Of a stretch of DNA of 64,000 nt, positions 4,149 through 48,944 are shown piece by piece. Within the stretch, counting starts at the first letter, position 1. Each line of letters begins with the position of its first letter. The notes under the pieces are model-generated. The model ran no database searches and had not been told where the DNA came from. It was given only the letters and a program-made list of their open reading frames with translations. The DNA comes from Halorubrum sp. 2020YC2 (GTDB lineage Archaea > Halobacteriota > Halobacteria > Halobacteriales > Haloferacaceae). Made by a program: the position numbers and the translations under genes. The stretch covers positions 1,736,001 through 1,800,000 of the forward strand of contig NZ_CP076019.1 in assembly GCF_018623055.1 (NCBI RefSeq). Reading direction: 5' to 3'.

Positions 4149-5276
4149 GTGGCGCGTTCGACGAAACGACGGCCCGGGATCGCGTACCGTCGCCCCGAAG
4201 GCGACCCGTCGCGGTTCGTGATCGAGGCCTCCGGGGAGCCGCGACCTGAGGTCGCGGAACGGCCCGACGGCGGGTGGCTCGACCGCGTCGTCGGGGACGA
4301 TCAGGAGCGCCTCCGCGAGGCGCTCGACTCGGACCCCGTCGACGTGGTGTATCGGGTCGCCTCCGACGGGGAGCCGCGGTGGGTCCACGAGCGGGGGCGA
4401 GCGACGGACGACGGCGACGTGGTGGGGTACCTCTTTCTGGCGGACGAACGCGTTCAGCGCCGACGGCGACTGGAGCAACAGCGGGAGCGGTTAGAGGAGT
4501 TCGCGAGCGTCGTCTCGCACGACCTCCGGAACCCCCTCTCCGTCGCGGTCGGGAACATCGAACTGGCCGCCGAACTCGACGAGGACGCGTCGGCCGAGCG
4601 GTTGGACCGAGCCCTCGACGCGCTCGACCGGATGGACGACCTCATCGGCGAACTGCTGACGCTGGCGCGGGAGGGGGAGACGGTCCAGTCCGCCGAGCCG
4701 ACGGAGCTGCGGTCGGTCGTCGAGAGCGCGTGGGAGACCGTCGGCGAACGCGCGGACGCCGCCCTCGTCGTCGACGACCCGCTCGGGACGGTGCCATGCG
4801 ACGCCGACAGGCTCCGGCAGGCCCTCGAGAACCTCTTCCGGAACGCCCTCGAACACGGGACGCCGGAGGACGTCGACGCCCTCCCGGACTCGGATCCGGC
4901 CGGGAACCGGTCCGGGGACCGCGTCGCGTCCGGAACGTTCTCGACGCGCGAGGGGTCGCCGGGAGAGCGCGCCGCGGAGGACGCCGCGGTCCGCGTCCGC
5001 GTCGGCCGGACGGACGACGGGTTCTACGTCGCGGACGACGGGCCGGGGATCGACCCCGACCGGCGGGACGCCGTCTTCGAGCCGGGACACACGACCGCCC
5101 CGGGCGGCACCGGCTTCGGACTGGCGATAGTCGAGCGGATCGCGGAGGCCCACGGCTGGACGGTCTCGGCGGCCCAGAGCCGGGAGGGCGGCGCCCGGTT
5201 CGAGTTCGTCTGCGACGAGCCGATCGAGACCGCGGAGCCGTCCGAGGGCGAGACGAGTCCGACTCGGGGCGTCTGA
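4149..5276 (+). CDS. Sensor histidine kinase with PAS-like N-terminal domain
   Basis: This is a 375-residue soluble kinase with no membrane segment. Residues 15-100 look like a PAS-type fold (YRVASDGEPRWVHERGR is PAC-like). A short basic coiled coil leads to the H-box FASVVSHDLRNPLSV, phospho-acceptor His124. The ATPase domain shows the N-box ENLFRNALEHG, G1 DDGPGID and G2 GGTGFGLAIVERI. An acidic, low-complexity loop of about 40 residues between N-box and G1 is typical of haloarchaeal insertions. No response regulator is adjacent, so the partner is unknown. The GTG start agrees with the TATA-like element upstream. Confidence 0.85.
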   Translation: MARSTKRRPGIAYRRPEGDPSRFVIEASGEPRPEVAERPDGGWLDRVVGDDQERLREALDSDPVDVVYRVASDGEPRWVHERGRATDDGDVVGYLFLADERVQRRRRLEQQRERLEEFASVVSHDLRNPLSVAVGNIELAAELDEDASAERLDRALDALDRMDDLIGELLTLAREGETVQSAEPTELRSVVESAWETVGERADAALVVDDPLGTVPCDADRLRQALENLFRNALEHGTPEDVDALPDSDPAGNRSGDRVASGTFSTREGSPGERAAEDAAVRVRVGRTDDGFYVADDGPGIDPDRRDAVFEPGHTTAPGGTGFGLAIVERIAEAHGWTVSAAQSREGGARFEFVCDEPIETAEPSEGETSPTRGV

Positions 5277-8310: not shown

Positions 8311-8750
8311 TCGCGTAGTTCGGTTGTAACCCCTGTCGGGTTTCTATTTCCGTTGGACACCAAAATTCGAGAGCGTCGGCGTTGAACCGCTCGACCGTGT
8401 TGGTCGACGCCGGACTTGTCGAGCGCAAAGACCGCGATGTCGGGTTCAGTCGCGTCGAGACCACCGGTCGATCACGACGTGGGGCCGGCTGTACCTGCGT
8501 GAGGAAGTCGGTCCCGGACTCGATGTGCCTGAGCCGGGTCCGTGGCCGCCGCATGCTACGCGGCCGGGTGAGTGGGCGGGGGTCTGGCATCTCGAAAAAT
8601 GTCTCGAATCCGAATAAGCACCCAAACTGGACCGGGAAGGGTTATCAGAACGATTCTCGCGTATGGTACTACGAGGTACTGCTTCCGAACAACACTAGAA
8701 ACGAACTAATGCTTGGAGCGGCGGTTTCGAGATTTCTATTTATACGAAAT
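8311..8750. other. Region without recognisable gene
   Basis: No frame here has convincing haloarchaeal codon use over a full protein. Short open frames exist on both strands (for example 8382-8774 plus and 8303-8590 minus), but none shows a motif I recognise. The stretch directly precedes an IS200/IS605-derived element and may be a decayed gene. Confidence 0.4.
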
Positions 8751-9250
8751 CAGAGAGAATACCCGCAGCTTTAGCCGTGGGACGAATCCGAAGACGTGGG
8801 ATACCCCACGTTCGACGGATTTGTTCGAGTTTCTACTGCGTGCTTTGGACTTCGAAAAAACGACGAGACGATAGTAGGGTCAGGTCGGAACGGAGCGGAT
8901 TCCGAACGACCTCCGGAGGCGGTCTCTCCGCCACTCAATGAGGCAGTATCCGAACCACCGACGCGGTGAACGCGAATTCTCGAAGGGTTCGTCGTTTTGC
9001 CTGTCGGTCAAGCGGACAGGAGATAACTCCGAGTCCGGCGACGCGTCAGCGACTCCCCGCTGGCAAAGACAACGGAGAGGAATTCACCGCGTCGAGGACA
9101 GGAGTACCGACGGTTTGGCGCTGGCAGTCGGCGGCCGACCACGACGACCGGGTGAGGCGTGAACTCCCGTGAAGTGGCGGAGTCATGGTCGCGAACCTGA
9201 AACTCTCCCCGCTCGGGAGTTCTCCACCTTCAGGCGGGGACGGACGTCAA
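8751..9250 (+). mobile_element. IS200/IS605-family derivative without tnpB core (copy A)
   Basis: The left boundary shows GAGAGAAT followed by an imperfect hairpin (CCCGC...TTTA...GTGGG, 8762-8781) and then GAATCCGA. The same order is found at the left of copy C at 48 kb. The right end has GGCGGGG followed by GGACGTCAA (9242-9249), resembling the right termini of copies B and C. A 15-base string, GATAACTCCGAGTCC (9022-9036), recurs in copy C. No transposase can be translated. The interior is consistent with the 3' end of an IS1341-type tnpB plus its omega-RNA region, internally deleted. Exact ends are approximate. Confidence 0.55.
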
Positions 9251-9283
9251 CTCTGTGACGCCGCCGCCGGCGCTATCGACCGC

Positions 9284-30949: not shown

Positions 30950-31034
30950 GCAGGGATAGCCAAGTCAGGCCAACGGCGCAGCGTTCAGGGCGCTGTCCTG
31001 TAGAGGTCCGCAGGTTCAAATCCTGCTCCCTGCA
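30950..31034 (+). tRNA. tRNA-Leu (anticodon CAG)
   Basis: Acceptor arms GCAGGGA and TCCCTGC pair, discriminator A. The anticodon stem-loop is CAGCG-TTCAGGG-CGCTG, anticodon CAG. A class II long variable arm (TCCTGTAGAGGTC region) and the T arm GCAGG-TTCAAAT-CCTGC support leucine. It lies between rpoD and rpl18e as in other haloarchaea. Confidence 0.95.
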
Positions 31035-31073
31035 CTCCGTTTTCCACGAACTCTCCGTTCAGGAGGGACAGCT

Positions 31074-48032: not shown

Positions 48033-48060
48033 TCGGCGGCGGTCGCTATCTTTCTTCGAG

Positions 48061-48480
48061 GAGAGAATCCCGCCGTTTACGGCGGGAGTGAATCCGACAA
48101 GCCCTCTACAGACCACGTTCTGACGCTGATGCGGATATTTATGTAGCGTCACGTCGGAGCATGACGTACACCGAGGCGGTTTCACCGCCACCTAAATACA
48201 CAATATCGGGACTCCGAGAATCAGAACGTTCGAGACACCCTCTCGAACCGCTGTGGTGTCTCGGTCAAGATAACTCCGAGTCCCCCCTGCCGGGGGATAG
48301 GAGTAACGGCGGTGTGGCCCCGTCCTCAGAAATCGAAGATTTCTGATGGGCTGCACGAGAACAGCGTTCTCGTGAACGCCATCGGCTCGTCATGCCGACG
48401 AGTCGTCAACCAGCAAATATCCCAACTCAGCGGTGCGGTACCGTGGGAAGCCTCGTCGTTTACGACGGGGAGGAGGTCAC
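48061..48480 (+). mobile_element. IS200/IS605-family derivative without tnpB core (copy C)
   Basis: The left end is GAGAGAAT then a perfect hairpin, CCCGCCG-TTTA-CGGCGGG (48069-48086 region), then GAATCCGA. The right end is CCTCGTCG-TTTA-CGACGGGG then AGGAGGTCAC, ending at 48480. The 15-base string GATAACTCCGAGTCC (48269-48283) also occurs in copy A. A frame around it (GQDNSESPLPGDRSNGG) resembles the hydrophilic tail of haloarchaeal TnpB. Several inner hairpins (for example AGAAATCGAAGATTTCT) are present. No transposase is encoded. Confidence 0.65.
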
Positions 48481-48944
48481 ACGGTTTCTTCCAGTGTCGT
48501 CTCGTCGCCGTGCCGGACGGCGACGCGGTTCGGGACACTCGCCTCGGTGAACGCGACGGCGACCGAGTACGGGTGCTCCTGTGCCACGTCCGGGCAGGCC
48601 TCCCCTTCCCACTCCGGGTCGTTTCTGGTCTCGACGCGGAGCGTCAGCGTTCCCTCGTCAAGCGCGGCGTCGATCAGGGCGGGCCGGTAACACTCCCGCG
48701 CGCCCTCGAGGATCCGCCCCGCGACGACTAGTCCGGGCGGATCCGCGTCGAGGTCGCCGCGTAGCTCGGCGGCGTCGACGGGACCGTGATCGGGACCCGG
48801 TCGGTCGCCGTCGTACTCTCGCCGGAACGTCACCTCGGCGCCGTCGATCGCCGTCGGGTCGTCGGTCCGCGACGGAGTCGGACAGCCAGCGAGCGAGGCG
48901 GTCGAGAGAGCGGCCACGGACGCGAGGAGGGCTCTGCGGCGCAT
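48477..48944 (-). CDS. Tat-type lipoprotein, unknown function
   Basis: This 155-residue protein starts MRRRALLASVAALSTASLAG with Cys21 as lipobox cysteine; the Arg triplet suggests Tat export, usual in haloarchaea. The mature part is acidic with Cys87-type pairs (ARECYRPALID and GEACPDVAQEH). I recognise no family. Its stop codon lies in the last bases of IS copy C (TCA at 48477-48479), so the insertion replaced or supplied its 3' end. Confidence 0.72.
   Translation of the reverse strand: MRRRALLASVAALSTASLAGCPTPSRTDDPTAIDGAEVTFRREYDGDRPGPDHGPVDAAELRGDLDADPPGLVVAGRILEGARECYRPALIDAALDEGTLTLRVETRNDPEWEGEACPDVAQEHPYSVAVAFTEASVPNRVAVRHGDETTLEETV

Follow-up and report, generated by a model that had tools for sequence, protein, structure and literature searches.

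Borders and layout of element A

The window (a 64,000-nucleotide stretch of the 3.06 Mb haloarchaeal genome of Halorubrum sp. 2020YC2) carries two short elements, designated A and C, all features of which are given here on the + strand. Alignment of family copies placed element A at 8744-9250 (507 bp), directly after the tetranucleotide TTAT (8740-8743, the TAM position) and ending in GTCAA; the first-pass annotation had the right border exactly, while the left border lies at 8744 and not at 8751. The element is non-autonomous, having no transposase or tnpB gene. The longest ORF wholly within A is 74 amino acids, and protein-coding ORFs were rejected, as none is long enough. Joining the flanks of 27 copies was also tried as a way to recover an interrupted reading frame, but the translations read, 4 of the 27, look like nothing more than off-frame ORFs of GC-rich DNA, and this line was not used. 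Searches with tnpB queries found no TnpB similarity within the tnpB-less family copies (L015-L064).

The left end carries an imperfect palindrome (8761-8782), which is kept in the family and is followed by GAATCCGA, and the right end carries a hairpin (9220-9241; alignment columns 376-397) which precedes GTCAA. These near-terminal palindromes match an IS605-type element, as is the case for PATEs (palindrome-associated transposable elements). In IS200/IS605 elements, terminal hairpins act as transposase signals. Between the two ends lie a spacer (8792-8872), a 5' RNA domain (8883-9020) made up of a hairpin and two nested helix pairs, and a core and 3' region resembling the sot0042/omega-RNA (9021-9241). 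A candidate promoter (8827-8849; a GAGTTTC box followed by a TTTnAA-like box) was picked out by eye in 26 upstream stretches out of the 27 full-length copies, with the box of A reading TTTGGA, off the TTTnAA-like consensus.

Among the 27 full-length copies, mean pairwise identity was 0.81-0.89 across the ends and the RNA part (0.82-0.89 for the RNA alone) and just 0.57 in the spacer, and fell to 0.25 and 0.27 outside the borders. TTAT was present in 25 of the 27 copies when a few bases around the left end were searched, and GTCAA in 34/36 aligned copies, with the remaining two reading ATCAA and GTCAC.

The family has been mobile. A filled site in genome G151 (L064) reads GATCTTAT-element-TCGTC, while the corresponding empty site in the 2020YC2 genome (L184) reads GATCTTAT-TCGCC. 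The insertion lies exactly behind TTAT, which is present once, so that the element was inserted 3' of a short target without target duplication, in the manner of a PATE. The joined flanks of this copy matched all 52 genomes of the genus (52/52), many of them contiguously. A classical MITE was rejected, since the ends of A have no inverted repeats and the family empty site shows no target duplication.

For A itself, each border is supported from one side only, by two different relatives. Up to 8743 the left flank is homologous to a 210-amino acid ORF which runs uninterrupted in genome G121, and from 9252 onward the right flank is homologous to genome G112. As these homologies belong to different loci, the surroundings of A appear to have been rearranged after insertion. 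The stretch at 8589-8743 is a remnant of the G121-type gene and ends exactly where A was inserted.

As a query, A matched 89 of 170 genomes of the taxonomic family (E<=1e-3), a count which includes left-end-only matches to tnpB elements, and it gave no match at E<=1e-5 in the phage collection. A belongs to a large haloarchaeal family of tnpB-less IS200/IS605-type elements (PATEs). Elsewhere in the 2020YC2 genome, a lone A-type left end was seen with no recognised right end (L088, rc 2863).

Element C and the tnpB-bearing relatives

Element C (48050-48480; 431 bp), defined from its sequence and its relatives, has the target CTAT and the end GTCAC. Its length includes a small inserted palindromic repeat (48323-48376), which is missing in relatives whose alignment passes straight from 48045-48322 to 48377-48480. 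This repeat also occurs inside A-family copies in other genomes (L041 and L043) and is reminiscent of the SMR-A repeats, for which PATEs are said to be targets in Haloquadratum.

The first-pass annotation had grouped A and C on the basis of their ends and a common 15-mer. Reading of both sites confirmed the left-end order, namely GAGAGAAT (8753 and 48061), a hairpin and GAATCCGA (8784 and 48090), and the 15-mer GATAACTCCGAGTCC is exact at 9022 (9022-9036) and 48269. It occurs nowhere else in the window even when 2 mismatches are allowed, and shuffled sequences average 0.27 such matches. The right termini, taken to be the same, are only alike (GTCAA in A, GTCAC in C), and the target sites differ (TTAT and CTAT). 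Both are non-autonomous IS200/IS605-type elements as proposed, but a single family with one set of ends (TTAT/GTCAA versus CTAT/GTCAC) was rejected and each element matches a tnpB class of its own. The view that the interiors differ holds only in part, as A and C share, besides the 15-mer, a related 5' RNA domain and the omega-RNA layout.

Full-length tnpB elements with A-type ends were found in relatives, as tnpB-only elements in the same genus (L068 and L075) and in the family (L087 and L069); their absence from all relatives was one outcome that would have spoken against the first-pass annotation. The TnpB of L068 carries the Pfam OrfB_IS605 and TNB domains. Such IS1341-type tnpB-only IS605 elements have the same target, left-end hairpin and right end as A, whereas in A the 5' domain stands in place of the missing tnpB. 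The CTAT/GTCAC class of C is likewise represented by tnpB elements (L004 and L005) and by an element with both tnpA and tnpB (L065). Where an element has tnpB, the 15-mer (or a version with one base changed) codes for ITPSP or ITQSP close to the C-terminus of TnpB, and sot0042 (RF02656) begins there. Judged by these sequences, the 15-mer is no private mark of A and C but an ancestral piece of omega-RNA/tnpB 3' sequence.

Five C-type copies of approximately 370 bp with CTAT/GTCAC were found elsewhere in the 2020YC2 genome (L192-L196, at 1106621, 1469011, 1492292, 1572798 and 2422440), of which four are identical and one differs by a single base over 373 bp, which indicates a recent spread of the C-type. 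One of these five copies splits another tnpB gene, the frame of which, by eye, is restored on reading ACTAT-CAACGG.

The omega-RNA-like region

A covariance-model search, which had been suggested as a check for an omega-RNA, matched A to RF02656 (sot0042) at 9021-9241 over model positions 1-174 of 174, weakly (23.6 bits, E 2e-4). As this score does not reach the curated gathering score of 88 bits, the region is called omega-RNA-like and not a member of the Rfam family. Element C was matched over the same model positions (1-174 of 174) with 45.8 bits (E 9.4e-11), its omega-RNA-like region being at 48268-48471. The proposal that A keeps an omega-RNA-like 3' region thus stands by way of a whole-model match, and more than this region is kept, since a covarying 5' domain lies in front of it.

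All 18 loci scanned, a selection from the loci collected, were matched by sot0042 over its full length at the element. The tnpB elements L004, L068 and L075 exceed 88 bits, while the tnpB element L072 scored 66 and the C-type L009 65. The 13 A-family loci scanned (L016, L018, L020, L022, L024, L026, L029, L032, L036, L038, L040, L049 and L054) all matched at 35-57 bits, A itself being lower than its relatives. Both A and C match the haloarchaeal omega-RNA from its GATAACTCC start to the right-end hairpin. In tnpB elements the omega-RNA overlaps the 3' end of tnpB; unlike sot0042 members, A and C are sub-threshold, have no overlapping tnpB gene and carry a 5' domain in front. A-type copies further differ from sot0042 in an enlarged first helix.

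At the gathering threshold, the Rfam search of the window returned two tRNAs only. ARAGORN additionally placed a tRNA-Asn and a tRNA-Leu at 4501-4589 and 30950-31035, both below the Rfam gathering score. Sub-threshold matches to HgcC (RF00062; up to 31.6 bits, threshold 50) were seen over IS605 right ends, one at 48353-48492 of the window and others in several loci. In its 3' half the HgcC consensus resembles the right-end hairpin of an IS605 element together with GAGGAGGTCA, and HgcC may therefore itself be an RNA of this kind.

Covariation was assessed with RNAalifold on 36 tnpB-less sequences (alignment A1), consisting of A and 35 of 42 family stretches; truncated or odd copies (L039, L042 and L059) and copies with inserts (L041, L043, L061 and L062) were omitted, and a second alignment (A2) of 33/36 also left out the near duplicates L027, L048 and L064. 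Both sides were changed in 29 of 82 pairs. In the 5' domain 10/29 pairs changed on both sides, with 96.3% of cells paired and a covariation of 0.274, compared with a mean of 0.173 in shuffled controls, which ignore kinship, and 0.043-0.115 in slid versions, a control that favours the structure because the structure was derived from the same alignment. For the core and 3' part the figures were 19/44 pairs, 97.2% of cells paired and a covariation of 0.304 (shuffled 0.165, slid 0.048-0.092; the same limits apply). Compensatory changes thus maintain both the 5' domain and the omega-RNA-like fold in these 36 sequences, and A retains 69/73 of the predicted pairs (28/29, 23/24 and 18/20).

Folds kept in this way could in principle act at the level of DNA, as single-stranded structures used by the transposase, and not in an RNA. 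The terminal hairpins of IS200/IS605 elements are indeed described as transposase signals in the available text on Haloquadratum PATEs (PMC3119063), yet the conserved folds lie well inside the element ends, an Rfam RNA model is matched over its whole length, and many G-U pairs are among those retained, which speaks for an RNA over a DNA fold; we regard a role in DNA as very improbable.

A 5' domain common to tnpB-less elements

Two models were used to trace the 5' domain, R1 (built from 33 A-family domains) and, in the reverse direction, R2 (built from 26 C-type domains). R1 matched C at 48152-48277 (E 4e-5) and found the right place in 20/25 further C-type loci (E up to 1). R2 matched A at 8901-9018 (E 1.8e-4) and found the A-type domain in 31/35 further A-family loci (E up to 1; some of these matches span just 40 positions). 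Neither model gave any match in the same 41 tnpB or tnpA control loci. Two R1 matches look like chance (window 50809, E 0.0029; L105 2718, E 0.59), so that the E-values are to be read as rough. Besides C, the sole other match of R2 was a further element in L030 (51 bits).

The A- and C-type domains (8883-9020 in A; 48156-48275 in C, from the R1 match, alignment A4 and pair counts) were given the same topology by RNAalifold, a helix enclosing a hairpin followed by a long helix enclosing another. Covariation in the C-type is slight (4/30 pairs) because the copies are alike. The domain was found by R1 in 65/170 genomes, and by R2 at 10 places in the 2020YC2 genome, which include A and the five C-type copies given above. 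A further element of this genome (L199) is tnpB-less and carries the 5' domain; it shares TTAC/GTCAA with the tnpB element L002, and the cores of both begin with AGTATCTC. The structured 5' domain of A and C, elements of two target classes, is a new observation, and the third class (TTAC/GTCAA) also has it. These class-wise matches indicate that target and ends follow the TnpB class, while the 5' domain is shared by the tnpB-less elements and did not turn up alongside tnpB. Another tnpB-less element with the 5' domain and a GTCAA end was also seen in the 2020YC2 genome (L200).

The distribution of the domain bears on whether A is a passive remnant, that is, the internal-deletion product of a tnpB element which moves by its ends alone and has merely inherited an RNA-like interior. 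Core deletions from IS605-type elements to PATEs are described for Haloquadratum in the available text of PMC3119063, and such an origin would also suit the ancestral tnpB/omega-RNA nature of the 15-mer and the low sot0042 score of A. Simple deletion, though, does not yield the 5' domain, given its occurrence in 0/41 tnpB/tnpA control loci; the changes on both sides of pairs were found within tnpB-less copies, the RNA is more constrained than the spacer, and its fold is retained in A. A passive remnant is therefore considered unlikely, and the element has the look of an RNA gene under selection, not of debris.

Candidate partners and the guide position

The 2020YC2 genome has 13 PF01385 matches (11 above the cut-off), among which the TnpB nearest to that of L068 is L002 (60% identical), whose element reads TTAC/GTCAA. 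Three Y1_Tnp matches were found, one of them with stop codons, and no TTAT-type tnpA was recognised among the tnpA matches of this genome. Across genomes, a close TnpB was present in 29/65 R1-positive and 26/105 R1-negative genomes (P = 0.011, with kinship ignored), while within the genus the figures were 15/33 and 6/19 and the difference was not significant (P = 0.39). The association of the 5'-domain RNA with a close TnpB partner is weak.

As the first-pass annotation had it, the guide of A would be read from the right flank (9251-9270, where the homology of the relative begins at 9252). Allowing up to 3 mismatches, the only target for this guide in the 2020YC2 genome was the right border of A itself. 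Since this genome has no close TTAT-type TnpB and the two flanks of A trace back to different ancestral loci, homing by this copy is probably no longer active, and the copy is probably a survivor with no current partner.

It might also be asked whether the RNA is a decoy, which would bind TnpB while offering no useful guide and reduce nuclease activity, thereby protecting the element or the host. Such a role has been proposed for circular omega-RNAs in the available text of PMC12558985, and it would agree with an omega-RNA core that is kept though the partner is often missing and with the want of a target for A in its own genome. A decoy would not need the right end to stay beside the flank, as a guide requires, nor the arrangement of the empty site of the G151 copy, which consists of the TAM and the guide-side flank; a decoy function appears distinctly unlikely.

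The reading we favour, and judge to be probably correct, is that A is a tnpB-less IS200/IS605-type PATE whose cargo is a structured RNA that borrows TnpB and TnpA. The RNA would be transcribed inside the element, from the conserved box ahead of 8883 (which in A departs from the consensus), and would be processed or bounded near 9021. Its last bases, taken from the right flank, would act as the guide, and a TnpB of matching target class would load it in trans. By cutting the empty site, TnpB would help to retain the element while a TnpA moves it. The 5' domain may replace what the tnpB mRNA usually supplies, be it a start, stability or processing.

A wider version of this proposal is put forward tentatively, as a possibility somewhat short of an even chance: these elements would be mobile guide-RNA genes, transposons with no other cargo than an omega-RNA fused to a dedicated 5' domain, by which it becomes independent of the tnpB mRNA. 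There would be several target classes, each with the target and ends of one TnpB class, and the elements would parasitise TnpB and TnpA in trans.

Comparison with known elements

The PATEs of Haloquadratum walsbyi (Dyall-Smith et al. 2011, PMC3119063), as described in the available part of that report, resemble A in having no terminal inverted repeats, near-terminal palindromes, a 4-5 base target without duplication, a length too short for a transposase and IS605-type ends. One of them, HqIRS71, is said there to be non-coding and to hold a stretch of the tnpB C-terminal region. The comparison is by description, and the same part of the report mentions no omega-RNA fold and no 5' RNA domain shared between classes. 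From the accessible portions of two other reports, sotRNAs are processing products of IS transcripts (PMC8303175) and also have circular forms (PMC12558985).

A PATE of 489 bp in the virus HRTV-DL1 has IS605-like ends, as A does, and is reported to be strongly transcribed in the available text of PMC10544981; unlike A, it was matched by neither R1 nor sot0042. Its reads are reported there as antisense to ORF3, while by eye the element (OP630574.1, approximately 598-1093) runs from left to right end on the + strand; library strand or an antisense RNA are possible reasons for this mismatch. The same text credits Gomes-Filho 2015 with showing a PATE to be active as an ncRNA, and to that extent the idea has a precedent. 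In the literature searched, no description was found of a PATE combining an omega-RNA with a 5' domain, or of a domain shared between target classes.

PATEs have been listed until now as repeats without a transposase. Should they prove to carry working guide RNAs, the supply of guide and of nuclease in OMEGA systems would be separable in nature, and this parasite-of-a-parasite arrangement would be directly testable in Halorubrum or Haloferax. The 5' domain itself is a concrete, testable RNA motif which may help to express the omega-RNA apart from tnpB.
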